The notes beneath the pieces were generated by a model. That model ran no database searches, was not told the DNA's origin, and worked only from the letters and a program-made list of their open reading frames with translations. A DNA stretch of 17,500 bases, from positions 406,376 to 423,875 of the forward strand of contig BLFN01000956.1 of NCBI GenBank assembly GCA_014634225.1, in the 5' to 3' direction. Numbering within the stretch: position 1 is the first letter of the stretch; each line of letters opens with the position of its first letter. This DNA comes from Acropora yongei (Eukaryota; Cnidaria; Anthozoa; Scleractinia; Acroporidae). Positions 20 through 17,500 of this stretch are shown in pieces. Both the position numbers and the translations under genes were made by a program.

Positions 20-745
20 TAGAAGTGTAGGTGGGAACCCAGGCATCCTTATTTATATTTTTTGTAGTGTTTAAGCAGCAGCCCCACAGAAGTTTAGGTG
101 GGAATCCTGGCATTTCTATTTATCTTATATTTTTGTAGTTTTCTAAGCGGTAGCCCCACAAAGTGTATGTGGGAACCCCGGCATCCTTATTTATATTTTT
201 TGTAGTTCTTTAAGCGGTAGCCCCACAAAGTGTAGGTGGGAACCCCGGCATTCTTATTTGTATTTTTGTAGTTTTCTAAGCGGTAGCCCCACAAAGTTTA
301 GGTGGGAATCCCGGCATTTCTATTTATCTTGTACTTTTGTAGTTCTTTAAGCGGTAGCCCCACAAAGTGTAGGTGGGAACCCCGGAATTCTTATTTGTAT
401 TTTTGTAGTTTTCTAAGCGGTAGCCCCACAAAGTGTAGGTGGGAACCCCGGCATCCTTATTTATATTTTTTGTAGTGTGTAAGAGGCAGCCCTACAGAAG
501 TGCAGGTGAGAATCCCGGAATTTCTATTTATCTTGTATTTTTGGCATCCTTATCTGTTTTCATAGCCCCACAAAATGTCGGTGGGAACTCCTTCATCTTT
601 ATTTATCTTATTTTAATGTAGTTTTTAAACGGTAGCCCCAAAAAGTGTCGGTGGGAATCCCGACAACTTCATTTACTTTGTACTTTTGTATCTCTTAAGT
701 GGTAGCCCCACAAAGTGTAGGTGAGAGAAACGGCACCTTTACTCA
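20..745 (+). repeat. 5' UTR tandem array of ~70-bp monomers (El-1)
   Basis: About eleven head-to-tail units of roughly 66-73 bp, each built on a core like GGTAGCCCCACAAAGTGTAG followed by GTGGGAA and a T-rich stretch ending TTTTTGTAG. Many units carry CCCAC and GTGGG about 9 nt apart, able to form a short hairpin. Two subtypes (GGGAACCCC and GGGAATCCC) tend to alternate, suggesting a dimeric higher-order unit. The last three or four units are divergent and match the last units of the El-6 array. Position just ahead of ORF1 recalls the promoter monomers of mouse L1 (established precedent); a promoter role here is inference. Confidence 0.85.
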
Positions 746-821
746 TCTTGTACTCTTTCTAAATATTTGCTTGTTATTACTACTCTTTATTTACTTCTAG
801 TATATTATTTATTCCTTCGCT

Positions 822-1976: not shown

Positions 1977-2001
1977 TTTTTTTTTTCTTTCTTCCTCTAT
2001 A

Positions 2002-3838
2002 ATGGCTCGTTTTTTTGACTCTAAAAGTTAATGGTCTTCGAGACCCTAACAAACATATGTCCTTTCTTCAGTGGTTGACTCATGTCTCCGCTGATTTTAT
2101 TTGCCTTCAGGGGACGCATCTCACTTCTGAATCTAAATGTTTTTACTGGTTTTCCTCTCTGGGCTTCTCCACCTTGTGCTCTCCGGGTTCTTCCCATTCT
2201 TGTGGCACTGTTCTTTTATTTCGTCATTCTTATTGTTTGTGCCCTTCTTTCACGGATTCTGCAGGTCGCTTTGTGTGTGGTGTATTTGATTTCGATTGTA
2301 TTTTTTTTAACGTTATTTCTCTTTGAGCACCTGATCGTGATCCTGGCCGCTCTGATTTTTTTTATTTTGTTTCTGATCAGGTGGACCCATCTGTCCCAAC
2401 AGTCATCTGCGGGGACTTTACTGCAGTTTTTGATGAGTCTTTGGACCGTTGGGGCTCTCATCCCTCTTTTTGTCGTAACTCATTTGTCTCATTGCTTGCT
2501 CTTTTTGAGGATTGTTGTATTGTTGATGTTTGGCGATATTTGAACCCTAGGGTGGCAGCCTTCACATGGTTTAAGCCTGATGGTACTCTTTCCTCTAGGA
2601 TTGACCTTATTGGTTTTCCCTTCCCTTGGTTACATCATATTTCTCCTTGTTCCATTTTGCCTTGTCCTTATTCGGATCACTCTGGTGTGCTGTGTGTGTG
2701 TGCAATCCCTGTGCTCCGGGACCGTGGAAATTAAATGTTTCTATACTTGAGGAACCTGATTTTATTGAGCTTATCGAACATTTTTGGCAGTCATAGAGGT
2801 TGAGTAAACCTTCCTCTAATCTCCAGACTTGGAGGGATAGATGCAAGTCCCATATCCGTGCCATTTGGCTCCGTTATTGTTCACGTCATTCAATGTTACG
2901 GAAGACTCTTCTTTGCTCGATTCCCTTCCTTGTCAACTAAAATCCCGTGTGGATGCGGGTATCGTCTCCTTGCTTGATGTGTAAGAGAAAGTACTTTCTA
3001 AGATTGCTGATGATGACAAGGTTAAGGCTAGGGGTGCCAGTGTCCCTTCGAGGATTCGCTGAGCCGAGGAGGGTGAAGCTTCCACTCGCTTCTTTCTTCG
3101 TCTTGAGAAGCAGTGTGGCACCAAGGGCTGGATTGCTGCTATGCGTCGGCCTGACCGCGTCCTTGCTACTGACGTTGCCTCTATTTGCTCATCCTGGGTT
3201 CATTTCTATTGCGACCTCTTTTTGGCATGTGCTGCTGACATGTCCGCCCAACGTACCTTAGTATCGGGTTTCTCTTCCCGTCTTCCTGACGAGGAATCTA
3301 TCTTCGTGAAGGTCTTGTTAGTTTGACCGAGGTTTCTGAAGAAAGGATAGCCGATTCAAAGGATCAGATGGTCTTCCGAAAGGAATTTTATAAAGCATTT
3401 TGGCATATCCTTGGTCCTGACCTTGTTGACGTCGATAATGATGCTTTCCCCACTGGTTGTCTGTCGGTTTCTCAACACACGGCTCTCATTACTCTGATTT
3501 TTAAAAAAGGAGATCGTCTTGATCACAAAAACTGGCGTCCGATTAGTCTTCTTAACTGCGACTACAAACTTTGCGCTAGAGTTTTGGCTGGTCGTCTTCT
3601 TCATGTTCTCCAGTCTATCATTGGCGACTCAGTTGCTTTTTTGAGAGATCTAGTAGATTTTAATTCCGAAACTAACACCTCTGCGGCCATTCTGTCTCTT
3701 GATCAGGAGAAAGCTTTTGATCCAGAAGATTGAGCTTTTCTTTTCCGTATTCTTGCTCAGTTTGGTTTTGATGCTTGTTTTATTTCTTGGGTTAAATTAC
3801 TGTATACTAATATTAGAAGTACTGTTCTTGTTATTAGC
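2002..3838 (+). pseudogene. ORF2 remnant: APE endonuclease plus partial RT, El-1
   Basis: Begins with ATG at 2002, but a T run at 2010-2016 puts the start one base out of frame with the endonuclease. APE motifs follow: TLKVNGL, ICLQGTH (catalytic Glu of LQETH changed to Gly; El-6 keeps LQETH), VICGDF, SRIDLIG and SDHSGV. Tyr of the SLYAP motif is a stop at 2324-2326. A frameshift near 2710 and a TAA in LLDV*EKVL near 2985 follow. RT motifs begin with KGSDGLPKEFYKAFW (frameshifted), then FKKGDRLDHKNWRPISLLN and ILSLDQEKAFD (motif A). About 13 residues are missing before IGDSVAFL relative to El-3, and the Trp after AFDPED is TGA. Sequence stops at NIRSTVLV, before RT motifs B and C. Confidence 0.85.
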
Positions 3839-3839
3839 T

Positions 3840-4440
3840 ATCGTGTCCTCCACCTGTGATGTGTAACTTGTGTAAATCTGTTGATCATAAAGCTAATGTT
3901 TGTTCCTTCTCCTGGGCGCGTGAACCTACCGGCATTTCACCGCCTCGTGAGGATGAGATTTCTTTTGCTGATCCTGTGCTTACCGACGATGCTGTAAAGG
4001 ACACTGACAACCACAACGACACCGACGATGATATGGATGATGATGAAGAAGAAGAAGAAGATGAAAATGAAAATGAGGAACAATTGCATGCTACCTCCAA
4101 TACCAATGAAATTTTTGTTGCCGCCGCTGGTATTCCTTCATCTACACGTTTAAACACCGATTCTTCAACTGATGACGTTTCTACCGAGAAAATGGGCAAG
4201 ACCCCGAAGGAAACTGCTGAGGAGTCCCCACTTTTATTTTCTGTAGACAATACCAAACAAGACAGTTGTACTACCAATATGACGACCGCGAAATTGAAGG
4301 AAATTAATATACCTCTCCGTAATCCTACTCAACCTACTTTAGTCACTGGAAAAACTGTTGAGAAGAGCGATAATGCTAAATTGTCTGGTCCTTCTGATGT
4401 GGAAGCAAGTCCGAAGAGAAATAACCCCCACGCCATATGA
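3840..4440 (+). pseudogene. ORF1 C-terminal half, El-2 (zinc knuckle and acidic tail)
   Basis: Open frame of about 195 codons with no good start, entered from the El-1/El-2 junction. Its N-terminus reads PPPVMCNLCKSVDHKANVC, a CX2CX4HX4C zinc knuckle in the same relative place as in the other ORF1s. Then comes a strongly acidic run of Asp, Glu and Asn (about 4010-4080) and a Ser/Thr-rich tail ending at 4440. The RRM-like region expected upstream is absent, so this is the 3' half of ORF1. It is uninterrupted, unlike most other ORFs here. It differs clearly from the ORF1 of El-5 although both insert in U2. Confidence 0.7.
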
Positions 4441-4502
4441 AATGTAAATAATTGATTTTTTTGTGTTTACATTTTGTGCTCATTGAATTCTTTTTGATGT
4501 TC

Positions 4503-5288
4503 ATGTCAGTTTCTCTTACTACCTGTCGAATTCAGAGCTAAGCTTTCTACTTTAAACGTTTGTGGTTTTGGCTCAAAAGCCACACAGCTTTCCGTTTTTG
4601 AATATGCTCGAAACACGAAATCGGATTTTATTTGCTAATTGCGATATCAATCGCAATGGTCAGGGCCTAGTTTTTGGTCTTCTGCTCTTGGCAAACAAGG
4701 CGGAGTTGCTATTTTTCTTCAGGAAAATTCTCATTTTGATATTTTAAATTAGCAGAAGGATTCTTCGGCCAGAATTGTTAGTCTTTTAGTTAAAGTTGAT
4801 GATGCGCTTTTTAATTTAGTTAACATTTACGCTCCCACCTATCCAACAGAACGAAAAGAATTTTTAGCAAATTTGCACAGACGGGGTTATATCAATAGTG
4901 ATTCACGCGCTGTCTGTACTAGATCAGAGACGATCGCTCATTGTTTTATTCACTGTCGCCGAACCAGGGAGTGTGGCGTCATTTTCATCATACCCTTTAT
5001 GCTCTCACTGTTCAGGACTTTGTTCCTAATATTAAGAATGCTTTCTTTTATGCATGGTCTAGGACTGCTTCTCAGGCACACAGATTAACTCGTTATGTGA
5101 TTCAAAGTATTCTTTCGGGCATTTGGTTTTTTTGCAATAGGGCTACTTTTCACAATGGTAGGGTAATGATCACCAGACTGAATGTAGATCTGTACCGACT
5201 TCCTCTTTCTGAATTGAATGACTTGTGGTGTCATCCTTCCTTCTGTGATTATGATGGAAACCAAGTGATTCCCAAGTCTTACGTGTAA
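4503..5288 (+). pseudogene. ORF2 remnant, El-2: endonuclease piece joined to C-terminal domain
   Basis: From about 4540 one frame reads STLNVCGFGS, SDFIC (then a stop), GPSFWSSALGKQGGVAIFLQ, a second stop, then NLVNIYAPTYPTERKEF, which is the N-terminal part of an APE endonuclease. At about 4870 it jumps to the far C-terminus of ORF2, where CTRSETIAHCFIHC resembles the C-terminal zinc knuckle of L1/Tx1 ORF2s. A frameshift near 4965 leads into VWRHFHHTLYAL and a final stop at 5286-5288. The rest of the endonuclease and all of the RT are deleted. The ATG at 4503 is one frame out from the endonuclease, so the true start is uncertain. Confidence 0.75.
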
Positions 5289-5443
5289 CAAAAAAGAAGA
5301 AAAAAGAAGAAAAAAGAACAAGAAGAAAATAATGAACTTTTGTATGTATTTTTCTTTTACCGGAAGTGACCTTTTGATTTATTTTGTAAACCGGATATGA
5401 CTCGAAGTATCTTGAAGTACTGTGAAGTAATGATGATGAAGGG

Positions 5444-5459
5444 TGTGCCATTTGGCACA
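5444..5459 (+). other. 3'-terminal hairpin of El-2
   Basis: TGTGCCATTTGGCACA forms a short perfect hairpin (GTGCC, loop ATTT, GGCAC, plus one more pair) 31 nt before the U2 junction. It is followed by GAATAACATTTCAAGAAC and an A run. El-5 has a hairpin of the same geometry at 11930-11943 with different paired bases and a matching downstream sequence. Likely a structure in the element RNA recognised by its reverse transcriptase (inference). Confidence 0.65.
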
Positions 5460-5490
5460 TTGACTGAATAACATTTCAAGAACAAAAAAA

Positions 5491-5641
5491 ATCTGTTCTA
5501 ATCAGCTTAATATCTGATACGCTGCTCATTGAGCAGCTCATATATTAAACTGATTTATGGAATCAAGCGCTGGAAAAGAGGCTTGCCTCGTCCCAGCCAC
5601 GGGTTGCCTCGGTGTAGCACTACCTCTGAGCCCAGCCCACC
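5491..5641 (+). ncRNA. U2: U2 snRNA, nucleotides 38 to ~188 (5' part displaced by El-2)
   Basis: Begins ATCTGTTC, followed by CTTAATATCTGATACG as in stem-loop IIa of U2. Stem-loop IIb is GCTGCTC-ATT-GAGCAGC, a perfect 7-bp stem differing from the human one, as expected of a real U2. The Sm site is mutated (ATTTATGGA instead of ATTTTTGGA). The 3' stem region includes CTCGGTGTAGCACTACC. The length fits nt 38-188 exactly. The 5' 37 nucleotides, which carry the U6-pairing and most of the branch-point recognition sequence, are not present upstream. As it lacks promoter and 5' end this copy is a pseudogene. Confidence 0.9.
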
Positions 5642-5661
5642 TCCCTCTCGGGAAGAAACAA

Positions 5662-5677
5662 TCAATTGAAAAGAGCT
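5662..5677 (+). terminator. Candidate U2 3' box
   Basis: CAATTGAAAAGAGCTT starts about 22 nt after the U2 end and is identical at the equivalent place after the other U2 copy (near 12143-12158). snRNA genes use a purine-rich 3' box shortly after the coding part (established). The match to the vertebrate consensus is loose, so this is a position- and conservation-based guess. Confidence 0.35.
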
Positions 5678-5770
5678 TCACCGTTATCGTTACTAACCAA
5701 GTGGTTTGTTGTTCTCTCCGCAGACACACACAGCCGGCTGTGAGTTTAGCAACTGACGGACAGACAAGGA

Positions 5771-5780
5771 AGCACCACAA
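5771..5780 (+). promoter_or_regulatory. Candidate PSE of U1 (upstream of El-3)
   Basis: AGCACCACAA lies 63 to 54 bp before U1 nucleotide 1. The other U1 unit has AGCATCACAA at the same distance, and the U2 gene has AGCACCACCA at 64 to 55 bp before its start (10582-10591). This spacing is where the proximal sequence element that binds SNAPc lies in animal snRNA genes (established). The motif call comes from the three-way match and is not experimentally known. Confidence 0.5.
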
Positions 5781-5833
5781 GGGATCAGCGCGCAAGCTCC
5801 GTAATGCGGTGTCAGGCTGCATCAGAAAAGTTC

Positions 5834-5848
5834 ATACTTACCTGATGC
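5834..5848 (+). ncRNA. U1: U1 snRNA 5' tip (nt 1-15), 5' side of the El-3 insertion
   Basis: ATACTTACCTGATGC matches the U1 5' end, whose ACTTACCTG pairs with 5' splice sites. It directly follows the U1 promoter region and is then interrupted by El-3. The bases from nt 3 on are repeated on the far side of El-3 at 9227-9240, giving a target-site duplication of about 13 nt with one mismatch. Confidence 0.85.
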
Positions 5849-5982
5849 GTTTTGGGGTCCAGTGAGTGTCTCTCTGTGCCTGTGGCTCAATTGTGGGAGT
5901 GTGGTTCGGTTATTACCTCCGTTCTCTTGGCGACTTGTGGTAGCGTAAGTTTTTCTAGTGTATATAAGTTTTTGTATATATC

Positions 5983-6034
5983 GGGTGACCCTCCCAGGGA
6001 CTTCAAGCTGGGCTTTTAGCCCTAACCTGGGGTA
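5983..6034 (+). other. Conserved structured 5' UTR element of El-3
   Basis: GGGTGACCCTCCCAGGG is followed by a hairpin GGGCTTTTAGCCC (6010-6022) and then TAACCTGGGGTATGCCC. El-6 has the same series at 12535-12590 with hairpin GGACTTCTTGTCC; the third pair changes from G-C to A-T on both sides, a compensatory change. Conservation here, amid poorly alignable flanks, suggests a functional RNA structure of U1-inserted elements (inference). Confidence 0.6.
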
Positions 6035-6129
6035 TGCCCGCCGGGTCCTGGGACTCTCTTTTCTATCATTTTTGTAAATATTTTCGTTGCTGTTTGGCCT
6101 GCTATTACGGCCTGTTTTTTTGCTTAAAC

Positions 6130-6609
6130 ATGATTTTCAAACGCACTCTTAGCGTGTAAGTCAACAAAGTTTCTCATGGAAAATCCAGCGAGGATGTTGT
6201 GACTGAGGTTAGGAAGGCCTATTCCCAGTACTCCTTGACGGCTGTGCAAGTCGGTTATGATACTACTCGAGTAACTTTCCAAGATATTGAAACTTTCAAA
6301 GAAGCTCAAGCAAGTAGGCATGTCCCCATTTTCAGTACTAATTGCTCCGTTGTGGGAGGGGGTCCACCCCCGGTGATGGTTCATATCTTTGATTATCCGG
6401 CTGAGATGAAGGACGACACTATTAAGTGCTGTCTGGCTTTGGTGAAGTTAAGTCTGTTAGAAGGCAGAAATACATCGGTTCTCCAGAGATTGAAACTGGA
6501 ACACACCTAGTTTTAATGACTTTTAAGACCATTCCACCACGCCTTATCAATATAAATGGTTTTTTTGTCGACTCTGGTATAAGGGCCAACCCCCGGTCTG
6601 CAAGCATCA
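6130..6609 (+). pseudogene. ORF1 remnant, El-3
   Basis: Starts at ATG 6130 (MIFKRTLSV, then a TAA at 6157-6159) and continues in the same frame to VTEVRKAYSQYS, aligning with El-6 ORF1. The RRM-like part includes GGGPPPVMVHIFDYPAEMKDD, then a frameshift near 6422 leads into GFGEVKSVRRQKYIG and HLVLMTFKTIPP. It reaches WYKGQPPVCKH, the first Cys of the expected zinc knuckle, and then runs without a break of frame into the pre-RT part of ORF2. The knuckles and acidic tail seen in El-1 and El-6 are deleted. Confidence 0.8.
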
Positions 6610-8879
6610 GTCCTGGGGAGATTATTACTCTTCCCTTTTTTCTGCTGAGTCCGTGGACGTTCGGATCCAGGATAGTGTTTTTGAAAATCTTACTACTAGG
6701 CTCCCTGCAGATGCTTGTTCCTCTTGTGAGGGCCCTGTCAGTACATGAGGTCCACACAGCATTAGAGGGAATGGCACGGGGAAAATTCCCGGGCTCAGAT
6801 GGACTCCCGATGGAGTTCTATTTGACTTTCTGAGACAGCATTGGCTCTGACCTGACCTGGTACTGAATGATTCTTTGGACAGAGGCCTTTTGCCTCTCTG
6901 ACAATGCACGGCATTAATTTCTCTTATCTTCAAGAAGGGGGATCGCCTTGAACATAAGAATTGGAGGCCCATTAGCCTCTCAAACATAGATTACAAAATA
7001 TGCACAACGACGGTGGCGGGTAGGCTACTTAAAGTCCTACATCACGTCATCCTCCCTAATCAAACATACAGTATTAGGGGCCGCTTCATTGGCGAGAATG
7101 TGACTCTTCTCCAAGATGTCGTGGATTTTGCAACGGAAACTGGGCGACCCATCACTATCCTGTCACTGGACCAAGAAATGGCCTTTGACAGGCTGGATTG
7201 GGGTTTTCTGTTTAAAACCTTGACACACCTGGGCCTTGGACCATCCTTCATAAAATGGGTCCAGCTTTTCTATGATAACATTAGAAGTGTCGTTCTAGTG
7301 GACGGATACAAGTCTGGCTTTTTCTTCCCTTCTCGAGGTGTTCGACAGGGATGCCCCCTGTCCCCCCTGCTATATGTTATTAGCATCGAGGTCCTTGCTG
7401 CTTTTCTTCGTACCAATTTGGATATTTTGGGATTGGAAGCACCTGGTTTGGCTCGGTGCCTCCCCACGGTATAGCTCAAAACAGATGCCACCTCTGTTAT
7501 TGCGTCATCTGATAGTGGTCCAAGCGGTTTTCTCTACATATGACATCTTTGAACGTGGTACTGGCTTAAAACTAAATCTGGCCAAGTGCCGTAGGCTTTG
7601 GCTGGGCTCTTGGCGAGGGCCACAGAATTCTCCGGTAGCCATTCAATGGACCTCAGGCATGATTAAGATCTTGGATATTTTCATTGGGCACAGGGATTTG
7701 GCGGAAGCCAATTGGATGCCTTGAACTGACTGTTGAGAAATGCCTGGCCTCTTGGCGAGGGCGAGCGGTGGTGCTTAATGCACTGGTGCTCTCCAAGATA
7801 TGGTATGTGGCTTCTCTGGTTTTCCTTCCATCCTGGGCCCTTGCCAGGCTCAACTCTGCGGTCTTTGGCTTCTTCTAGACTGGAAAGCCAGAGCTCGTCG
7901 CTCGGAATGTTGTCCAGCAACCTAGAGATAAGGGGGATTTCTCTGTAGTCTCCATATAGTTTAAAATATTCTCTCTCCTAGTTCAGTGGGTAAGACGTCT
8001 CGAGGCTTGCCCCAGTGGGTGGGTATACCTTCTGATGTACTGGCTACTGGACCGCTACGACCTTACTATTCCAATTGCGTTCCCTGGTTCCGTAGAGGTT
8101 GACTGGGAGCTTCTGCCTCCCTTCTATTGTGCTCTTTCCCAGGCCTGGACAGCCATGCAAGGCTCTCTGTCCCCCACTGCTGGTTTTTCCTTCGGGTCCC
8201 CCCCCCAGTGGGTGGCCCTTTTCCCATTTTGAAAGCCTCATGCAAATCATGCTACATTACCTTAGTGCAGTCCACTTCAGTGCAGCCTCACTGTGTAGTA
8301 AAGTTTAACCCTTTGTATGGCCCCCTGGACTGGGTGTCAATCTGGACATCCCTCTTTTTAATGAGGCTTGACCGTAAAGTAATAGATCTTTCATGGAAGG
8401 TTGCACGTGGGGTTCTAGATACGGCAGAACGCCTGCATAGTTTTGGCTATACAGTGCCCCAATCTTGTTTCTGTTGCTTTCCACTGGAATCCCTGGATCA
8501 TCTCTCCTTTTCCTCCCCTCTGGCTCAGAGTGGCCTGTCCTGGATCCAGTCTCTGCTGTTTGCTGCAGCCCCTCAGGCTCCTTCGATAAACACCAAACAA
8601 GTCCTATTTGGATTTTCCAGTGATGATTTCAGGATTTTTCCGCATGTTTTTGCATACCTCATTGGTGTTTGTAAGCTGGGAGTGTGGCGCCAGCGAAATG
8701 ACTTCAGATTTCGGGGAGTCCGCCCGAGCACTGTTCGGCTTGTGTTTTTTATCAGAAAGAGGGTGCGTTTTTACTTCCCCCTTCTCTCTAAATGTTTTCG
8801 TTCCACACACAGACATCACTATTTTCATCATCAATGGGGTGGGGATGGTGCAATCGGTGCAATCTGTCAAGGTGCTTAA
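6610..8879 (+). pseudogene. ORF2 remnant, El-3: reverse transcriptase and C-terminal domain
   Basis: Begins just before the RT with YYSSLFSAESVDVR, then EVHTALEGMARGKFPGSDGL. RT motifs: FKKGDRLEHKNWRPISLSN (about 6930-6990), RGRFIGENVTLLQDVVDF, ILSLDQEMAFDRLDW (motif A, Asp kept) and SRGVRQGCPLSPLLYV (motif B). In motif C, YADDATS has become LKTDATS near 7474-7495, so one catalytic Asp is gone. The C-terminal part has several frame changes, RGRAVVLNALVLSKIWYVAS, then a 250-codon open stretch (8127-8879) with CFCCFPLESLDHLSFSS, a C-terminal zinc knuckle whose last Cys is Ser. The endonuclease is absent. The protein would copy element RNA at the nicked target (family knowledge). Confidence 0.9.
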
Positions 8880-9226
8880 TTTTAGTGAGCTTTACAATTA
8901 TAGCTTTTAAAATTCCTATTTTATTTCCTTTATTGCCTCTTGTTTTTTAAGACCTCCCGTACTTTTATTCTTCTCTCTTTGGGAAGGGGGTTTCAACTCC
9001 CTGGCGAAGTTGGAGAGCCGGTGCTTCCTCACATGGCAGTTCCATATAAACCTTGGATGGTATTGATTTTTTTCTTGACTACTATAGTCTCTTTCCTTTT
9101 GGCGTCTTTTCTCTTTGCTCGCTTTTCTCTGTTTGTTTCTCTCACTAGCTGCTTTGTTTTCTTTCCTGACCTTAATGGCTCACAGGCATTCTACTACACC
9201 TGTGGGACCAAAAAATAACAAAAAAA
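8880..9226 (+). other. 3' UTR and tail of El-3
   Basis: Non-coding, T-rich. Contains the 3' UTR motif GGTTTCAACTCCCTGGCGAA (8989-9008) followed by GTTGG, shared with El-4 (9665-9685) and El-6 (16431-16452); CAACT and AGTTG can form a 5-bp stem. A terminal hairpin pairs CTCACAGG (9179-9186) with CCTGTGGG (9199-9206). It ends in an A-rich tail fused to U1 nt 3 at 9227. Confidence 0.65.
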
Positions 9227-9254
9227 ACTTACCTGACGCAGGAGGCACTGTGAT

Positions 9255-9297
<43 letters not shown>

Positions 9298-9310
9298 AGA
9301 TCTGGCTGAC
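9227..9310 (+). ncRNA. U1: U1 snRNA 5' half (nt 3 to ~85), 3' side of El-3
   Basis: Starts ACTTACCTGACGCAGGAGG and is almost identical to the U1 body at 16568-16730 up to CATTGCACTT, the U1A-binding loop of stem-loop II. It then diverges (GATCTGGCTGA still aligns weakly) and is lost by about 9310. The second half with the Sm site is absent; El-4 sequence takes over. It has no promoter of its own because El-3 separates it from the U1 promoter. Pseudogene. Confidence 0.88.
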
Positions 9311-9748
9311 TCTGTTACCTGTTTCATCTGATGTTCCTCTTAAGGAAGGAGAGATCGCAATGTCTACCGAGCCTTCAGAGGTTGGTGCCTCTTCATCCCG
9401 GTCTGTTCGTTCGTCTAATGTTCCTCATGTTACTCCTGTTCCTGATTACAGAAAGCTTGTCCGTTTTGTCCTTCCTAAAGTGAAACCTGGTTCTGATTCA
9501 TCCGCTGTTAAGAAGTTGTGCCTGTCCTTAGTCAAAGCCCATAAACTGAATGTATCCGAAGATGGATGTGCCTGTATTACTGCCCCTGTGTGTTCAAATT
9601 CCTGAGGATTGTTCCTGCTTGTTCCTGTCACTGAATTTTTTCAAGTTTTTTCAAGAAGGGTTCCGGTTCGATTCCCCAGCGAAGTTGACCAGCTCGTGCT
9701 CCCCCTTTTAGGCACTCTGACATTACAACCTGGCTGTAGTCTGTAGTC
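9311..9748 (+). mobile_element. El-4: remnant of a further non-LTR element
   Basis: Short remnant between the U1 5' half and the long spacer. It holds the start of an ORF1-like frame (9360-9605) and then jumps to a 3' UTR-like stretch GGTTCGATTCCCCAGCGAAG (9665-9684), matching the 3' UTR motif of El-3 and El-6. Most of the element is deleted. It occupies the position of the missing U1 3' half, so it may be a separate insertion into U1 stem-loop II, or a fragment brought in by a deletion. Its 3' boundary is unclear: repeat-unit spacer homology resumes at 9749. Confidence 0.55.
9360..9605 (+). pseudogene. ORF1 N-terminal fragment, El-4
   Basis: An 81-codon open frame from ATG at 9360 to TGA at 9603-9605. 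The N-terminus is Ser-rich and low complexity, followed by a more ordered KLVRFVLPKVKPGSDSS and LCLSLVKAHKLNVSEDG. I recognise no catalytic motif. Its place ahead of a LINE 3' UTR-like stretch and the SNAQ-like composition of LINE ORF1 N-termini make an ORF1 fragment the best guess. It does not align with the N-termini of El-5 or El-6 ORF1 by eye. Confidence 0.4.
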
Positions 9749-10216
9749 TGTTCTCCTCCCACCGATCATGTTAGCCAAGCAGGCAGGCCGTTTGTGTGTG
9801 GCCTACCGGCAATAACAATGTGCAATTTGAAGCTTGTGTGTCGGTCACGTTCGTTGCAGATGGGTTCTATTTTTATAGTTCTGTCTGTGTCCCTCCGTCT
9901 TGAAAGGAAGACGACATAAGGTGACATAAAAAAGATTAGGTTGGGACACTGTTTGTTGTGTGTGTGCGTGTGTGTCTGCCAATGCCATGGACACTTCATT
10001 GCATTGTTGTCTCTACTTAGAATGGCTTTTATTTGTCTTGTATGCGCTCCGCCTTCCATGTTGGCTGGAGAATTGTGTTTTTAATGTCACAAATGTCTAA
10101 AGTCAATGGAATTGAACAGCATGCGCAGTTATCACGCTAGCGCGCGCTCCATTGCAAATGACTCCAAAAAGTAGATTTGAATTGAGAAACAACTTGTGCT
10201 TGGTTGTTTGCTCGAT

Positions 10217-10247
10217 TGCTTGCTTCCTTGCTTGCTTGCTTGCTTGC
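10217..10247 (+). repeat. (TTGC)n microsatellite
   Basis: Imperfect run of TTGC units, GCTTGCTTCCTTGCTTGCTT and onward. The paralogous spacer at the window end has only about two units, so the run expanded or contracted after the repeat units diverged. Confidence 0.8.
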
Positions 10248-10451
10248 ACACTGGTTAAGCAACCTCTGTCTGAAAAAAATGGTGTAGAAGTAAAACAAGT
10301 TAATTCAGTGACTTGCTGTTGTGTAATAGTTACATCTCAGGTGATGCCAAGGGACAAAACAGCTTTCCCTGTGGTATGGTCGTAGACAAGGAAATCATTG
10401 CGAAAATTTGCTCTCTTATGAGCGGAATTCAAAGAGAGGGTTACTTGTCTA

Positions 10452-10471
10452 GTTGGTTGGTTGGTTGGTTG
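10452..10471 (+). repeat. (GGTT)n microsatellite
   Basis: Five consecutive GTTG units in the U1-U2 spacer, about 175 bp before U2. The paralogous spacer is cut off by the window end, so conservation cannot be judged. Confidence 0.8.
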
Positions 10472-10581
10472 CTGTCATGCAACACAGAGAGCAGTGATCA
10501 CTGCCGTTAGAAGGGAAGGCTTGCTGTTTTGCTGTTGCACGTGCACGCTGGCATTCTGGGCAAGGCAGTCGGGTATGCAAT

Positions 10582-10591
10582 AGCACCACCA
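10582..10591 (+). promoter_or_regulatory. Candidate PSE of U2
   Basis: AGCACCACCA lies 64 to 55 bp before U2 nucleotide 1 at 10646. Near-identical decamers occupy the same distance upstream of the two U1 starts (5771-5780 and 12260-12269), while the rest of the U1 and U2 upstream regions differ. This is the pattern expected of a shared SNAPc site. Confidence 0.5.
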
Positions 10592-10645
10592 TATCTTCTG
10601 TGCAGGAACCGTGCTGCACTCTGGCTGGCGTGGGCCATTTTGGCC

Positions 10646-10659
10646 ATCGCTTCTCGGCC
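10646..10659 (+). ncRNA. U2: U2 snRNA 5' tip (nt 1-14), 5' side of El-5
   Basis: ATCGCTTCTCGGCC is the invariant start of U2 (the next bases should be TTTTGGCTAAG). Sequence then switches to GATAGTTAAC, the 5' end of El-5. U2 resumes at nt 38 at 11977, so nt 15-37 are missing around this insertion. Confidence 0.8.
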
Positions 10660-10699
10660 GATAGTTAACATTTCGTTTGTTTTCTTGTAGTTTGTCAGA

Positions 10700-11857
10700 A
10701 TGCCAACCTACCATTATCCATGCAGCCTTGTGGCCCAGTTTTCAGAAGACGTGTAGAAGAACGCAGGCGTCGCTGATGTCTTACCACTTCTCATGAAATG
10801 CCTTGATCCGGATAAGATCCTGTGAGCGCAGTTTCTAAGAGCTGGAAGAGTGCGGCTGACCTTTGACGATCCTGAGACTTGTGCTGCTCTTCTAAAGAAT
10901 GGTCTTGGCGATGTCGCGGTTCAGCTTTTTAATGCAAGAGTTCGTTTAGTCCACCTACGAGATCTACCTGTTGAAGTTGATCACAATGCTGTTTCTACTT
11001 TTTCCTCAACCTACGGTGAAGTCCTGTCCATTGATCATTGTGACTTTGAAGACTACCTGTCTGTGCGCAATGGTAACCGGATAATCAAGATAATTTTGAC
11101 TCAAGACACCCCCTACTTTATTGCAATCGAAAGTTGCAATTGTCGGGTCTGGTATCATCGTCAACCGTCTCAGTGTTCAATATTTTGTGAATTTGGTCAC
11201 CGTGCCCAGGCCTGCCCGCTCTGTGGTTACTGCCGGCGTGGTCGTCAACCCGGCCAGGCAGGTCTGGGGCTCTCCTCCTTCTGCTGATGTTTTTACCAAT
11301 GTTTCTATTGATTTGGATGATTCAAGTATTTCTGATTCTGCTATAGTTATTGAAGATGATCGTGTTCCTGAGGATAATTCGCCAGTTCCTGAACTTTCTG
11401 CTAATTTGCCTGTTGATCCTGTCAAAGTTATGCAACCTGCCGATCCCGGTTTAGGTAAATCACCTGATACTGTTGCTGTTAAAGTTTCGAACAATCCGCC
11501 TGCTAATAATGATGTGTCAAAGTCTCAATCTTCTCGTTCCTTTGTTACTGCAAAAGTATTTTGTACTCGTCTATCCAAGAACTTTGTTCCTCTTCCATTT
11601 CCGAACTTTAATGTTACTGACAAAGAATGGGACTCTAAAGCTAAGGCTCACTTAAGGCTGTGTTTACTGGTAAAGTCACCAACATAACTAATAGTGACCT
11701 TCGAAAATGGTCAGAGAACGATTTACGGGAAGTTTCAAATCTTTTTTGTGAAATGCTGTCAGTTTGGGATTATTTGGTGGACTTTGTTTTTGGTTTAGTT
11801 AAGTCTTACTGGAACAATGTGAAAAAAACTAAAGGAGCATCACCTAGTACATCTTGA
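10700..11857 (+). pseudogene. ORF1, El-5 (RRM-like region, zinc knuckles)
   Basis: ATG at 10700 opens a frame with two in-frame stops (after FSEDV and after PDKIL) that continues into VRLTFDDPETCAALL. RVRLVHLRDLPVEVDHNAV and SSTYGEVLSI look like an RRM fold. A zinc knuckle follows at about 11172-11230 (CSIFCEFGHRAQACPLCGYC). The frame then shifts near 11235 into a long acidic, Ser-rich tail (SIDLDDSSISDSAIVIEDD) up to LSKNFVPLPFPNF. A final shift near 11655 gives TGKVTNITNSDLRKWSENDL and the stop at 11855-11857. ORF1 here has its full C-terminus and is followed directly by 3' UTR. Confidence 0.8.
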
Positions 11858-11929
11858 GTGAATTTTTTGGAAAACTTTTTTTAGGCTTAATTCTTTTTCG
11901 TTTAATATAATGATATTTTCTGTATATAT

Positions 11930-11943
11930 GTATCTAATGATAC
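11930..11943 (+). other. 3'-terminal hairpin of El-5
   Basis: GTATCTAATGATAC: five pairs and a four-base loop, 33 nt before the U2 junction. The El-2 counterpart is GTGCCATTTGGCAC. Two of the five pairs differ and both keep pairing (G-C to A-T and C-G to T-A). This supports a selected RNA structure at the element 3' end. Confidence 0.65.
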
Positions 11944-11976
11944 TTTTGAGAATAAAGTTTCAAAAGACAAAAAGAA

Positions 11977-12122
11977 ATCTGTTCTTACCAACTTAATATC
12001 TGATACGCTGCTCATTGAACAGCTCATATATTAAACTGATTTTTGGAACCGGGCTGTGGAAAAGAGGCTCGTTCCAGCCATGGGTTGCCTCGGTATAGTA
12101 CTACATACGAACGTGGCCCACT
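11977..12122 (+). ncRNA. U2: U2 snRNA, nucleotides 38 to ~188 (3' side of El-5)
   Basis: ATCTGTTCTTACC, CTTAATATCTGATACG, stem-loop IIb GCTGCTC-ATT-GAACAGC (one pair broken), an intact Sm site ATTTTTGGA, then GGTTGCCTCGGTATAGTAC near the 3' stem. It is about 5 nt shorter than the copy at 5491-5641 because of a small deletion in the stem III region. Stem IIa is damaged. It lacks its own promoter and 5' end because El-5 is in between. Pseudogene. Confidence 0.9.
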
Positions 12123-12322
12123 TCCCTCTGCGGAAGAAACAATCAATTGAAAAGAGCTTGACCGTTATCCTTACTAACCGGGTGGCTTGTTGTTGTTTCG
12201 ACACACAGACACGGCCAGCTGTGAGTTGAGCAGGTGACGGACGGACGGACGGACAAGAAAGCATCACAAGGGATCAACGCGCAAGCTACGTAATGCGGTG
12301 TCAGGCTGCGTCAGAAAAGTTC
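12123..12322 (+). other. U2-to-U1 short spacer with U1 promoter region (second unit)
   Basis: A 200-bp spacer paralogous to 5642-5833. It carries the same candidate U2 3' box (CAATTGAAAAGAGCTT near 12143), a small GACG run (12236-12254, longer than in the other copy), and the conserved 60 bp before U1 with GTCAGGCTGCGTCAGAAAAG next to the start. Confidence 0.75.
12260..12269 (+). promoter_or_regulatory. Candidate PSE of U1 (upstream of El-6)
   Basis: AGCATCACAA at 63 to 54 bp before U1 nt 1 at 12323. One C-to-T change from the motif at 5771-5780. Same reasoning as for that site. Confidence 0.45.
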
Positions 12323-12338
12323 ATACTTACCTGACGCG
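12323..12338 (+). ncRNA. U1: U1 snRNA 5' tip (nt 1-~16), 5' side of El-6
   Basis: ATACTTACCTGACGCG, the U1 5' end, directly after its promoter region. Bases from nt 3 recur at 16568 beyond El-6 as ACTTACCTGAAGC, a target-site duplication of about 13 nt with one difference (C against A). Confidence 0.87.
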
Positions 12339-12534
12339 GGTTAAGCCCATGGCGAGTGCCTTGTTTGCTTGGCGTGTTTTGGGGTCAAGTATATTTGTGA
12401 TAATTAGAGACGTTTATTTGGATTATGGTATCCAACTGGACAAGCCTTTTTTGGATCTGTTGTAAGATTTTGTGCTTTTTCTTGTCTCTTTTGGTCACCC
12501 ATGCGGTTTAACTTTTCCGTAGTTTTATCCGGTT

Positions 12535-12590
12535 GGTGACCCTCCCAGGGCCTTATTCTGGACTTCTTGTCCTAACCCGGGGTAAGCCCT
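12535..12590 (+). other. Conserved structured 5' UTR element of El-6
   Basis: GGTGACCCTCCCAGGG, then hairpin GGACTTCTTGTCC (12560-12572), then TAACCCGGGGTAAGCCC. Homologous to 5983-6034 in El-3, with a compensatory change in the hairpin stem. It lies between the U1 junction and the monomer array. Confidence 0.6.
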
Positions 12591-12667
12591 CTTCTCTGTT
12601 CCTGTTGGACGTTTTTTCCCTTCAAGTCCAGACTCTTTTAGTTCCCATTTTTTCTAGCCTTAAATTA

Positions 12668-13290
12668 TTGTAAGCGGTAGCCCCACGAAGGGTAGGAGGC
12701 AATACCGGCACTTCTACTTTCTATTTTCTATTTTTGTAGTTCTTAAATGGTAACCCCACAGAGGTGTAGGTGGGAATCCCGGCTTTTCTATTTATTCTGT
12801 ATTTTGTATTTCTGTATTTCTTTAAGCCGTAGCCCCACAAAGTGTAGGTGGGAACCCTGGCATCCTTATTTATATTTTTTGTAGTGTTTAAGCGGTAGCC
12901 CCACAGAAGTGTAGATGGGAATCCCGGCATTTCTATTTATCTTGTATTTTTGTAGTTTTCTAAGCGGTAGCCCCACAAAGTGAAGGTGGGAACCCCGGCA
13001 TCCTTATTTATATTTTTTGTAGTGTTTAAGCAGCAGCCCCACAGAAATGTAGGTGGGAATCCCGTCATTTCTATTTATCTTTTATTTTTGGCATCCTTAT
13101 CTGTTTTCAAAGTGGTAGCCCCACAAAGTGTAGGTGGGAACACAGTCATCTTTATTTATCTTATTTTAATGTAGTTTTTAAACGGTAGCCCCACAAAGTG
13201 AAGGTGGGAATCCTGACACCTTCATTTACTTTGTACTTTTGTATCTCTTAAGCCGTAGCCCCACAAAGTGTAGGTGGGAATAACAGCTCC
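12668..13290 (+). repeat. 5' UTR tandem array of ~70-bp monomers (El-6)
   Basis: Nine head-to-tail units with the same core as the El-1 array (GTAGCCCCACAAAGTGTAGG then TGGGAA). The first two units are more divergent. The last three or four correspond unit by unit to those of El-1, while the middle differs in number, as expected if units are gained and lost by recombination or template switching. Confidence 0.85.
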
Positions 13291-13375
13291 TTTACTCATC
13301 TTGTACTCTTTTCTAGATATTTGCTTGTTATTACTACTCTTTATTTACTTCTAGTTTATTATTTATTCCTTTGCT

Positions 13376-14523
13376 ATGAAACAGCCACGTACTCTTAATA
13401 ATCATGTTGGCCGTAAATTATTGGACAAATGTCAAGTTGAAATTATGAATGAAGTTACCCGGAAGCTTAATTCTGTTATTGCTGTTCAAGTTCTCTATGA
13501 GATTTTGAGAGTTACGTTTAAAACTGACGAAGCTTTTCGTGCGGCCAAACAACATAAAGATATATATCTTCTTTTTTCATTTGACTGTAGTATCTTAGGC
13601 GGTGGCCCATCTGCCACTCCTGTTCACATCTTTGACTTTCCTTACGAGGAAGATGATACCCCTATTAAGCTTGCTCTTAGTTCTCATGGTGCAGTTAAAA
13701 ATATCATTAAACAGAACTATCATGGTTCTTCTGTTTTTACTGCCACGCATGTTGCTTTCATGGATATTATTGAGTCTAAGTTTTTAGTTATTGGCAGCTA
13801 TTGCTGTCGTTCTTGGTACAGTGGGCAACCTCTAGTATACAACATTTGTAAAAATGAGGGTCATATGTCTGCCAATTGCCCAGATAAAGGTAAATGTCGC
13901 CGTTGTGGCTCTTCCGGTCATGGGACTCTCTTACTTCTACTGTCTCTCCTGCTGCTTCATCCTCCGACTTTAATCTTGAATTTCCACCCCCTGCCCCTGT
14001 GGCGATTGTTTCTGATCCCCCTCCTCCTTCTAATGCTAATGCTGACGTCACTGAACATCTTGCTGATGCTGACCAGGACACTATGGCTGACGTTAGTTTA
14101 TCTCATGTTGATGATCCTTCTGCCGGCTCTTGTGAGTCTGAGTCGGATACTAGTGATAAAGACTCCATTGTTGAAGATAATAATACTTCTGTAGTTGTTT
14201 GCTCCTGTTGAGCACCTCTCTGATTCAGATGTCTCTAATGAGGAGGATTTCTCCTCCTCTCGTAAGCGTAATCGTAGTTCGGATATTGAAGATTTTACTT
14301 TGTCTCGTCTAAGATTGGACGTGTTGAATGTAATGATTCTGCAGCAGAGACTGCTGTAGATCCTGAATCTCCTCTTGAGGATTCAAATTCTGTTGTTTCT
14401 CCCTCTGTGGAGCCTACTGAGATGCCTGATTCCGATCTGGCATGTGTTTCTCTTGATGCTGTCTCTGTTACCTCTCTTTTGGAGGATGCACAGAGACCAG
14501 AAGTGTCTCCTTCTGTTTTGTAG
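13376..14523 (+). pseudogene. ORF1, El-6 (start intact, later frameshifts)
   Basis: ATG at 13376 (MKQPRTLNNHVGRK) begins about 180 intact codons: VTRKLNSVIAVQVLYEILRV, an RRM-like part with GGGPSATPVHIFDFPYEEDD and LALSSHGAVKNIIKQ, and knuckles YNICKNEGHMSANC (first Cys now Tyr) and CRRCGSSGH. A deletion of about 24 bp relative to El-1 cuts the second knuckle near 13922 and shifts the frame. The acidic tail (SDTSDKDSIVEDN and SDSDVSNEEDF) continues in other frames, with further shifts near 14200 and 14300, to TAG at 14521-14523. The long frame 13376-14194 is therefore chimeric: its last ~90 codons are out of frame. Confidence 0.82.
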
Positions 14524-14548
14524 CTTTTTTTTTCTTTACTTCTCTATA

Positions 14549-16419
14549 ATGGCTCGTTTTTTTTACTCTAAAAGTTAATGGTCTTCGAGACCCTAACAAA
14601 TGTATGTCCTTCTTCAGTGGTTGACTCGTGTCTCCGCTGATTTTATTTGCCTTCAGGAGACGCATGTCACTTCTGAATCTGAATGTTTTTCCTGGTTTTC
14701 CTCTCTGGGTTCTTCCCATTCTTGTGGCACTGTTCTTTTATTTTATCATTCTTATTGTTTGTGCCCTTCTTTCACGGATTCTGCGGGTGGCATTGTGTGT
14801 AGTTTCTTTGATTTTGACGGTTTTTGTTTTAACGTTATTTCTCTTTACGCACCTAATCGTGATCCTGGCTGCTCTGACTTTTTTCATATTGTTTCTGATC
14901 AGGTGGACCCGTCTGTTCCAACAGTCATCTGCGGGGACTTTCATGCAGTTTTTGATCGGTCTTTGGACCATTGGGGCTCTGACCCCTGTTTATGTCATAA
15001 TTCATCTGTCTCATTGCTTGCTCTTTTTTTAGGATTGTTGTATTGTTGATGTTTGGCGATATTTGAACCCTAGTGTGCCAGTCTTCACATGGTTTAAGCC
15101 TGATGTTACTCTTTCCCCTAGGATTGACCATATATTGGTTGTCCCTTCCCTTGGTTATATCATATTTCTTCTTGTTCCATTTTGCCTTGTCCTTATTTAG
15201 ATTACTAAGGTGTGCTGTGTGTGTGCTATCCCTATGCCTTTGCCTCGTGCTCCGGGATCGTGGAAATTAAACGTTTCTATACTTGAGGAACCTGATTTTA
15301 TTGAGCTTATCAAACATTTTTTACAGTCATGGAGGTTGAGTAAACCTTTTTCTAATCTCCAGACTTGGTGGCAGACAGGCAAGTCCCATATCCACGGCAT
15401 TTGCCTTCGTTATTGTTCACGTTGTTCAATGTTACGGAAGACTTCCTCTTCTTTGCTTGATTCCCCTGCTTGTCATCAAAAATCCCGTGTGGATGCGGGT
15501 ATCGTCTCCTTGCTTGATGTGTAAGAGAAAGTACTTTTCCACTAAAATTAAAATCTTGGGTGTCTTTTTTGGTGAAAGACATTTGTCTGACGATAATTGG
15601 CATCCTCGCCTTGATGTAGTCTCTCGTTGCCTGAATTCTTGGCATTCTTGTGTCCTTTCTTTCGCGGGTAGAGCCTTGGTCGTTAATGCCCTTGAGTTCT
15701 CCCGCGTCTGGTATATTACATCTTTGATTCATATGCCGGAGTGGGTCCGCACCGAAGTCAGACGCACTGTTTTTAGTTTTATATGGGCCGGCAAGCAAGA
15801 GTTGGTCGCGCGTCGCGTTATGTATCATCCTAAGTGTCGAGGTGGTTTTTCTGTCATTTCAGTGGATCTTAAAATAGCGGCACTTTTAATTCAGTGGGTA
15901 AGACGACTCTCTGTCTGCCCCAACGGATGGGTTTCTCTCTTGAAATATTGGCTCCTTGACCGGCAAGGTGTTTCGCCTAATGATTTTTATGCTAACCCAT
16001 CTATTTTTTCTTTTCCTCGTTTTCCACCTTCTTATACTGTCTCCTCTGTCTCGTGCAAGTCTACCTATCAAGCTTTATTTTCACTTCACCCAGCGGTACC
16101 GCACTGTGTTTGTAAGTTCCATCCCTCGTTTGGTGCCCTTGATTGGCCCACTAAATGACGCTCGCTCTTTTTTCTCCCTCAGGATCATCAAGTATGTGAC
16201 CTTAACTGGAAGATCGCTCATGGAGTACTAGAAACTGCAGAGAGTCTTTCTTCATTTGGATTGTCTGTTCCTCTAGCCTGTTTTTGTGGATATCAAACTG
16301 AATCTCTCAAACATCTCTTTTTCTCGTGTCCTTTGGTTCCGAGTGGGTATGCTTGGGTCCAAACTTGTCCGATTCCTCTTTCATATGCACTGTTTAGCCT
16401 CCCGTTTTTTATTATCTAA
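14549..16419 (+). pseudogene. ORF2, El-6: endonuclease joined to C-terminal domain, RT missing
   Basis: ATG at 14549 is followed by an 8-T run that leaves the start one base out of frame, as in El-1. APE motifs: ICLQETH (Glu kept), SLYAPNRDPG, VICGDFHAV and PRIDHIL; the SDH motif is lost. A frameshift near 15028 and the same LLDV*EKVL stop as El-1 (TAA near 15521) follow. At about 15536 the sequence jumps to TKIKILGVFFGERHL, beyond the RT palm. The C-terminus includes AGRALVVNALEFSRVWYITS and FIWAGKQELVARRV, a frameshift near 16150, then CFCGYQTESLKHLFFSCP, an intact C-terminal zinc knuckle, and a stop at 16417-16419. Compared with El-3 the last ~110 residues are also missing. Confidence 0.87.
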
Positions 16420-16567
16420 GGGTGAGGCGAGGTTCGACTCCCCGGTGAACTTGGCGGGCCAGCCCCATTGAGGGGGAGCCCCCTCTCCCTGGCTCTTCTT
16501 TTCTTTATCTGTTTTGAAGACCTTCGGGCATTGCATTTAGCCTGGGGGATCGCCCGAAATACAAAAA
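16420..16567 (+). other. 3' UTR and tail of El-6
   Basis: Contains GGTTCGACTCCCCGGTGAAC (16431-16450), the 3' UTR motif shared with El-3 and El-4. A terminal hairpin pairs TTCGGGC (16523-16529) with GCCCGAA (16552-16558). A short AATACAAAAA tail then runs into U1 nt 3 at 16568. Confidence 0.65.
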
Positions 16568-16651
16568 ACTTACCTGAAGCAGGAGGCACTGTGATCAAGG
16601 AGGCAGTCCTATCAAGGTGAGGCCCTTTCATTGCACTTTGATCGGGTTGAG

Positions 16652-16686
<35 letters not shown>

Positions 16687-16730
16687 CACAATTTGTGGTA
16701 GCGGGGACCTGCGTTCGCACTAGTCCCCGC
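16568..16730 (+). ncRNA. U1: U1 snRNA body (nt 3-165), separated from its promoter by El-6
   Basis: Complete U1 apart from the first two bases. ACTTACCTG (16568-16576) is the 5' splice-site recognition sequence. Stem-loop I follows with GATCAAGG (human GATCACGAAGG, so the U1-70K loop is altered). Stem-loop II has ATTGCAC (16630-16636), the U1A site. Stem-loop III GCGATTACCCCAAATGTGGG then TAACTCG shows compensatory change against human TTTCCC/GGGAAA. The Sm site is AATTTGTGG (16690-16698). Stem-loop IV GCGGGGAC...GTCCCCGC pairs perfectly. Length fits the usual 164-165 nt. It lies 4.2 kb from its promoter, so it is probably silent, unless the element's 3' UTR drives it. Confidence 0.93.
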
Positions 16731-17500
16731 CTCTTTCTCGCTCACCTGTTTGTTTCTGTGATGTGGATGCACCGCGGCTGCTGTTGCAGTTGAGCTGTGC
16801 TGAGTCAGTGTGGGGTTTGATGTTTGATGTTGTTCATGTTGCAGAGATGAGGAGGCTGACTGGCTTGATTTTTTGCGTACATGAGGAGGAAGAATGTAAT
16901 TGATCAATGGTCATTGTAATTTCTCTACGGAGATGAACAAACGATAGAGTCTACAAATAGTAAGTAGTCATGCTATGTAGTAGTGATATATGTTTGAAAT
17001 TAATGTTCTCCTCCAACCGATCATGTTAGTCGTGTTAGTCAAGCAGGCAGGCCGTTTGTGCTTGGCCTGCCGGCAGTAACAATATGCAATTTGAAACTTG
17101 TGTGTCGGTCACGTTCGTTGCAGATGGCTTCTATTTTAGCATGTAGCTCTGTCTGTGTCCGTCCGTCTTGAAAGGAAGACAACGCAACGCGACATGGAGA
17201 AGATTAGGTTGGGACACTGTTTGTTGTGCGTGTGCGTGCGTGTCTGCTAATGCCACGGACACTCCATTGCATTGTTGTCTGGACTTACAATGGCTTTTAT
17301 TTCTTGTCTGCGCTCCACGGCTGGAGAATTGTTTTTGATGTCACAAATGTCAAATGTCAATGGAATTGAACAGCACGCGCAGTTATCACGTTAGTGCGCG
17401 GCATTGCAAATGACTCCAAGAAGTAGATTTGAGTTAAGAAACAACTTGTGCTTGGTTGTTTGCTGGCTTGCTTGTTTAGCAACCTCTGTCTGAAAGAAAT
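16731..17500 (+). other. Long U1-to-U2 spacer (start of the next repeat unit)
   Basis: Non-coding DNA after U1. 16731-17003 has no counterpart in the other unit, where El-4 or a deletion replaced it. 17004-17500 aligns with 9749-10280 through most of its length, so a U2 gene is expected a few hundred bases past the window end. No clear 3' box after U1, though GTTTGTTTCTGTGATG (16748-16763) is in the usual range. A reverse-strand open frame crossing the U1 copy is not taken as a gene. Confidence 0.7.

Follow-up and report, generated by a model that had tools for sequence, protein, structure and literature searches.

A stretch of 17,500 nucleotides (nt) from Acropora yongei (the window; C350:406376–423875, where C350 is contig BLFN01000956.1 of a 405 Mb assembly in 365 contigs) holds pieces of the U1 and U2 small nuclear RNA (snRNA) genes separated by long interspersed nuclear elements (LINEs), and the question it raises is whether this is an accident of one locus or the work of elements that enter these genes by preference. 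Chance does not explain the arrangement: other places on the contig show the identical order and junctions. The window is, with high probability, a piece of a composite 5S–U2–U1 tandem array in which three LINE lineages all land, each entering one gene at a set point.

An initial annotation had described a tandem U1–U2 cluster in which every visible gene copy is interrupted. Its U1 and U2 pieces, all on the plus strand, are scored by the Rfam models, three above their cut-offs and the U1 at 9225–9394 below, and their boundaries and same-strand order held when read base by base, with U2 3′ parts starting at 5490 and 11977. The two duplicated spacer types are likewise recovered by self-comparison: a block of U2 3′ part, spacer 1 and U1 tip at 5466–5849 matches 11950–12338 with 83.8% identity, and 9749–10225, within spacer 2, matches 17004–17477 with 85.3%. 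The window holds no uninterrupted U1 and no uninterrupted U2, as annotated, and with the elements taken out the unit measures about 1.7–1.8 kb, close to the 1.7 kb proposed.

The same units extend over at least 460 kb of C350 in the order U2, spacer 1, U1, spacer 2, U2. Searched with the U2 3′ part joined to spacer 1, the genome yields 10 places, nine of them on C350 (73826–536145, one strand); the tenth is a 48-nt match on C169. At C169:453321 (L010) a U1 5′ tip stands alone with 55 nt of spacer 1, and other sequence comes after it. The description as a two-gene array is right for the tandem U1 and U2 but incomplete, as the unit holds a third gene, 5S rRNA, which lies between U1 and U2 on the strand opposite to both and has a LINE lineage of its own. 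Rfam places 5S opposite the U1/U2 strand in five of 14 loci (four on C350, one on C233), and BLAST with the C233 copy finds 5S, whole or partial, at 10 places on C350. The gene order is identical to that of the linked 5S–U2–U1 tandem unit described for Acropora, which is 1731 bp long in A. pruinosa and spans about 424 kb in A. digitifera (PMC8167085), and a U2–5S linkage is described for Favites (PMC9005458). When the text of PMC8167085 was scanned for transposon, LINE and insertion, only a reference title matched.

Do the elements enter at fixed positions? Except where a whole-genome search is named, the junction counts cover 80,983 readable bases of C350 in 13 segments, the window among them. 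All eight readable U1 3′ junctions start at nt 3 of U1 after an A-rich tail, seven of them with a ACTTACCTGACGC-like sequence. Among eight readable U1 5′ tips, five pass into an element near nt 15/16, two are uninterrupted and one is fused to spacer 2. For two families in the window, U1-A and U1-B, both sides of one insertion can be read, and the target duplication is 13–14 bp. At two U1 3′ junctions (355757 and 364595) another element follows in place of U1, a tandem insertion. The U1 model gave 10 matches in the genome (42 of 468 candidates scored), eight above the cut-off and seven of these on C350; a U1-model match of 76 bits lies at C229:6599379. The U1-element junction pattern was not found in IMG/VR.

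A similar picture emerges for U2, where all nine readable 3′ parts start at nt 38/39 after an A-rich tail and all eight readable 5′ tips are cut inside the gene, seven of them after nt 25 (in two of these seven the following one or two bases would fit U2 too). With cuts at nt 25 and nt 38/39, insertion therefore removes about nt 26–38. The U2 model gave 14 matches (46 of 1453 candidates scored); nine exceed the cut-off, and these nine are the 3′ parts on C350.

In 5S, both readable 5′ junctions lie at nt 40 (332160 and 360758) and are followed by minus-strand LINEs, and one 5S-inserted LINE shows pieces of open reading frame 1 (ORF1), endonuclease and reverse transcriptase (RT). Behind A-rich tails, two further 5S copies start, one with nt 38 (457790) and the other with about nt 27 (107322). 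Another six 5S copies (five on C350, one on C233) run without interruption for their full or almost full length, some of them slightly altered, and the genome search gave 47 matches, 39 above the cut-off (47 of 782 candidates scored). As further observations on 5S, a 5S-only array with a period of about 674 bp and, some 50 kb away, a LINE frame of 1150 residues lie at C234:2483531–2507275 and 2557488–2560166. C233 holds a second piece of the composite array at about 2.89–3.06 Mb (L041–L044); it comprises spacer 2, 5S and U2 tips about 30–34 nt long, and near it are peptides of 22 and 29 residues matching U1-type and U2-type proteins.

The elements themselves appear from their domains to be apurinic-endonuclease (APE) LINEs of the L1/Tx1 kind. 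Those in the window comprise two copies of U1-A, one of U1-B, a remnant, U1-C, and the families U2-D and U2-E, and between them they show a PF03372 endonuclease, RVT_1, zf-RVT and a CCHC motif; the combination of APE, RVT_1 and zf-RVT in ORF2, CCHC in ORF1 and an RT closer to L1 than to R2 is that of the Tx1/L1 group. Against solved structures, the U1-B RT is nearer to L1 ORF2p (E 3.2e-24) than to R2 (E 1e-12). Relatives of the U2-type ORF2 also have PF03372, and the local endonuclease pieces match each other and the relatives' proteins. PMC12005156 puts L1-Tx1 elements at about 1% of three coral genomes.

Protein searches (E ≤ 0.001) gave 909 U1-type, 973 U2-type and 672 5S-type relatives, of which the best 120 each were listed (P0001–P0120, P0121–P0240 and P0241 onward, respectively). 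P0015 and P0001, close relatives of U1-A and U1-B, have long open frames. Of 352 fetched relatives, the 239 with 1050–1400 residues were placed in an RT tree together with 10 local fragments, and three clades separate: U1, with 97 relatives and four local fragments (support 0.958), U2, with 80 and four (1.0), and 5S, with 45 and two (1.0). Seventeen of the 239 fall outside them (13 from the 5S list, four from the U2 list); in an earlier tree built without the 5S list, the two 5S-inserted fragments stood on the U1 side at long distance. The annotation had assigned a separate element family to each gene, and the tree supports separate lineages, but within U1, as within U2, several diverged families occur. 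The parallel that it drew with R1 and R2 holds, in that site-specific LINEs form a separate lineage for each gene. Two relatives have names, P0290 from the coral Oculina and P0227 from the sea anemone Actinostola.

That lineage matches gene bears on a first alternative, in which LINEs with no target specificity gathered in a decaying array. None of the window elements retains a full-length open ORF2, which would suit such decay; nucleotide positions nevertheless repeat, and each gene shows one orientation. We rejected this explanation, which is hardly credible, as contradicted by the junctions.

A second alternative is that a few insertions were amplified by unequal crossing-over, so that the regularity reflects unit copying instead of repeated targeting. 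The two U1-A copies in the window are indeed 88% identical, element fusions occur at window position 3844, in the protein P0003 and apparently at C350 361005–364594, and six of 28 pairs among eight U2-element ends are related. The other 22 pairs of these 3′ ends (a ninth, L009, was left out) do not match, however, and diverged families meet at one junction: the RTs of the U2 elements at 67 kb and 157 kb are 40% identical, and those of U1 elements about 60%. The tandem U1 insertions at 355757 and 364595, split by target sequence, point to repeated insertion. Amplification as the source of the pattern is improbable.

A third alternative, that collapsed or chimerically joined repeats created the pattern, draws on the failure to find an uninterrupted U2 site in 405 Mb although the animal needs U2. 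It is contradicted by same-base junctions at many separate places with different elements, for which we rejected it as the source of the junctions. The lists of U1-type and U2-type relatives also share contigs: among the best 120 of each, and taking equal size to mean the same contig, 15 contigs carry both types, for example those of 26,586, 31,451, 101,867, 127,101 and 172,315 bases, while two shared contigs of 359,124 and 695,809 bases also appear for 5S-type proteins at 41–53% identity to the query. Furthermore the open ORF2 of P0003, from a public collection, is U1-type over about its first 1000 residues (91% to P0001) and U2-type at its end, much like the window fusion near 3844; P0003 may reflect exchange between lineages through recombination in the array. 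An artefact of assembly is very unlikely to explain the junctions.

Several results do weigh against three lineages with set entry points. Two U1 copies are uninterrupted (C350 74161 and 160012; two of the eight tips), so the claim that every copy is interrupted fails for U1; one U1 tip (457636) is fused to spacer and one U1 3′ junction (365975) is degenerate. The U2 5′ junctions vary, the tip in the window being cut after nt 14, and two U2 tips on C233 reach about nt 30 and 34 and adjoin the array spacer. The 5S 3′ junctions lie at two places, and no element that shows a 5S 5′ junction can be followed to either of them in the readable sequence. For U2 the claim stands, as a search of the entire assembly for the uninterrupted site (32 nt, up to three mismatches) found none; since the animal needs U2, the assembly probably lacks intact units and has lost or collapsed part of the array. 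Lastly, a genome search with P0015 listed 51 matches (40 of 341 candidates scored), and the best or nearly the best E-values belong to three matches off C350, on C233 and C234, which are longer but 34–49% identical. Among the candidates scored, the U1 families close to P0015 still look confined to the array here, since every match of at least 53% identity is in the C350 array; off it the best reaches 49% (C233:2930932) and the others 28–43%.

How, then, would the elements enter? In the reading of one lineage per gene, each would enter its gene at a set, highly conserved point via target-primed reverse transcription, a mechanism that fits because the junctions recur, the 3′ ends are A-rich and an APE domain is present. 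Under it, the 3′ junction would mark the first nick. With the U1 lineage, the bottom strand would be cut near nt 2/3 and the top strand near nt 15/16, so that ACTTACCTGACGC, with which U1 recognises 5′ splice sites, is duplicated. With the U2 lineage, the cuts would fall at nt 38/39 on the bottom strand and, in most cases, at nt 25 on the top, and the loss of nt 26 to about 38 would take away the part that recognises the branch site; the 5S lineage would cut the top strand at nt 40. With such offsets between the cuts, U1 would gain a duplication and U2 suffer a deletion, while 5S would acquire a duplication that is either short or longer. Each element has the orientation of the gene that holds it, so that transcription from the gene promoter could continue into it; such read-through, like present activity, is possible. 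Unequal exchange and deletion between units would then truncate and fuse the elements. In the view of PMC3706591, copy number and conservation shape target choice, and the sites, in highly conserved parts of the RNAs, fit that view.

Parts of this system have been described before. LINEs targeting U2 (Keno and Utopia) and 5S (Mutsu) are already known, as is the 5S–U2–U1 linkage in Acropora. Keno is an APE LINE whose insertion destroys the gene, likewise here, and its U2 3′ flank starts at about nt 38/39 at TCTGTTCTTATC, as in all nine junctions (PMC6136364). Keno, compared by its description, differs from the present case, where several families share a 5S–U2–U1 array and nt 26 to about 38 can be seen to be deleted. 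Utopia shows the same U2 3′ junction, tandem insertions and more disrupted than intact copies, and several Utopia families share one U2 array in Phytophthora (PMC4640811); its endonuclease is restriction-like, and we rejected membership in Utopia on the APE domain found here. Mutsu is, like the 5S lineage, a LINE with 5S as its target gene (PMC3706591). Dada-U1 DNA transposons also insert in U1 genes (PMC3706591), with DDE, 6–7 bp duplications and the site GCGAAT; the elements here are LINEs at U1 nt 3–15 with RT, APE and a 13–14 bp duplication, and membership in Dada-U1 was rejected on these differences. R1 and R2 in 28S rDNA are also separate LINE lineages within one tandem unit, but they enter one gene at two sites, whereas three lineages here enter three genes. 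In the open-licence PMC literature, as far as its texts were covered, neither a LINE in U1 (there a Dada target) nor three LINE lineages in one unit was found; an earlier listing in Repbase or in the 2004 Keno/Mutsu paper is possible. The annotation's suggestion that joint occupation is new stands within this literature, with U2 LINEs themselves known earlier.

A further question is whether U1-targeted elements resemble their target. LINEs often carry a 3′ stem-loop. Seven readable U1-element 3′ ends reach the target (the masked end at 106978 and the truncated U1-C end were left out), and five contain ATTGCAC 39–49 nt before the end, one ATTGCAT and one ATTCTAC. That most of these ends carry AUUGCAC, the U1A/SNF-binding loop of U1, is suggestive. 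U1A contacts AUUGCAC and the closing C-G pair (PMC2203988), and for structural studies Drosophila SNF was prepared in complex with a 22-mer whose loop is AUUGCACCUC (PMC5992148). It is possible, though doubtful, that U1-targeted LINEs carry a 3′ mimic of U1 stem-loop II and enlist host U1A/SNF in RNA stability, in poly(A) control or in homing to snRNA loci. We give about an even chance to the alternative that AUUGCAC simply belongs to a stem-loop which the RT of the element itself reads and that the likeness is accidental: such 3′ stem-loops are frequent among LINEs, the exact motif is absent in two of seven ends, and folding clearly beats shuffles in two (z −3.18 at 394256 and −2.89 in U1-B) and weakly in one (−1.50 at 422941), the other four scoring −0.42, 0.47, 0.77 and 1.22. 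This shuffle test is weak either way, because U1 stem-loop II itself scores −0.04. An accident is harder to square with an exact AUUGCAC in five of seven ends whose flanking stems differ, or with the predicted fold at 422941, where the loop around AUUGCAU has 10 nt and a closing C-G pair, like that of U1 stem-loop II; at 394256 the predicted loop has 8 nt, or 10 if one A-U pair opens. ATTGCA was also not found in the last 150 nt of nine U2 elements. ATTGCAC occurs 14 times on the plus strand of the mosaic (4.8 expected from composition) and 11 times on the minus, so it is not overwhelmingly frequent; the case rests on position, because six of the 14 lie in U1 bodies and six in five U1-element ends.

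Two other motifs were seen in element tails. The 5S-inserted element ending at 457790 carries in its tail the 10-nt TCGTAGGCTT, as at the 5S 3′ end; this single case would be a second one of target mimicry. In the 3′UTRs (untranslated regions) of U1 elements, a second conserved motif, GGGGTTCGATTCCCC followed by a AGCGAAGTTGGCGAGCT-like sequence (window about 9650–9700 and 16430–16465; L035 and L037) looks like a tRNA T-arm plus hairpin.

The window can now be followed in order, every feature lying on the plus strand except the 5S remnant. The first copy of U1-A (1–3843), whose 5′ end lies beyond the window, has 5′UTR repeats (about 21–757), ORF1 with CCHC (PF00098 within 1232–1771), endonuclease and the start of the RT, in broken frames; it is 87.8% identical to 12668–15537, and its endonuclease and RT pieces are 84% and 80% identical to P0015. 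Near 3844 it is fused to U2-D (3844–5489; left boundary approximate), and the expected U1 3′ part, spacer 2 and U2 5′ tip are absent between them. U2-D is without its 5′ part and consists of the ORF1 end, endonuclease start, C-terminal part and 3′UTR, with U2 nt 38/39 directly after; compared with the U2-inserted element at about 68757–73814, its endonuclease piece is 45% and its C-terminal piece 37% identical. The first U2 3′ part (nt 38/39 to the end, 5490–5645) scores 101.4 bits with Rfam U2 at 5468–5645, above the curated cut-off, and is followed by spacer 1 (5646–5833), within the 83.8% match, and a U1 5′ tip (5834–5849) from the junction table. U1-B (5850–9226) has part of ORF1, RVT_1 (PF00078, E 2.8e-24; 84.6% to P0001 in the RT) and zf-RVT (PF13966, E 4.2e-8) but misses the endonuclease region; its 3′ hairpin (9177–9209) has the loop ATTCTAC in place of the ATTGCAC of most other families. 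U1 nt 3–89 follows (9227–9313), starting with the duplicated ACTTACCTGACGC and 93% identical to intact U1; the Rfam match at 9225–9394 (51.8 bits, E 1.3e-10) is below the cut-off of 69.5 because the copy is truncated.

Next comes the remnant U1-C (9314–9748), whose 3′ tail aligns at 75–76% to two other U1-element ends, and by comparison of spacers this place lacks U1 from nt 90 on and the initial 274 bp of spacer 2. The later parts of spacer 2 (9749–10645; 85.3% to 17004–17477, and matched in other copies) contain a 5S remnant of nt 1–24 (10364–10387, minus strand; 95.8% over 24 nt, E 1.3e-5, to the 5S gene at C233:2970460–2970578). This remnant, U1-C and the fusion near 3844 had been missed by the initial annotation. 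The second U2 5′ tip (10646–10659) keeps nt 1–14, compared with nt 1–25 in the seven other readable tips on C350, and leads into U2-E (10660–11976), internally deleted to ORF1 (30% to that of U1-A) and a 3′UTR whose final 31 nt are 90% identical to the element end at 159670. The second U2 3′ part (11977–12126; 69.3 bits at 11913–12126, above the curated cut-off) is followed by spacer 1 (12127–12322), delimited by self-comparison and spacer comparison, and the second U1 5′ tip (12323–12338; junction table). The second copy of U1-A (12339–16567) has 5′UTR repeats, ORF1, endonuclease (PF03372, E 2.7e-7) and C-terminal part, with pieces 65–81% identical to P0015 and the RT core missing near 15537; its 3′ hairpin (16518–16551, located by alignment; fold z −1.50) has the 10-nt loop ATTGCATTTA. 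The U1 body behind it (nt 3–164, 16568–16729; 122.2 bits at 16566–16729, above the cut-off) starts with the duplicated sequence and lacks only the first 2 nt, and the first parts of spacer 2 (16730–17500, by self-comparison and spacer comparison) continue beyond the window. The U1-A 5′UTR repeats (window 21–757 and 12671–13310) are tandem units of about 70 nt with the core GGTAGCCCCACAAAGTGTAGGTGGGAA, several per element, and the sole match between the U1-A and U1-B 5′UTRs in the DNA self-comparison is a common block (5984–6039 with 12535–12589, 82% over 56 nt). Weak snoRNA matches in the window fall below the cut-offs and were taken as chance.

The array would add U1 snRNA to the genes used by sequence-specific LINEs and would show one repeat unit split among three lineages, two of which strike the bases that recognise introns, at the 5′ splice site (U1) and the branch site (U2). 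If the U1A-type hairpin is real, it hints at a way in which an element might find its target or share its regulation, and if the mimicry is true, element and target would share one RNA-binding protein. The locus would also offer natural tests of how target choice diverges among related LINEs at one place, and of how a genome functions when no assembled U2 is found intact.

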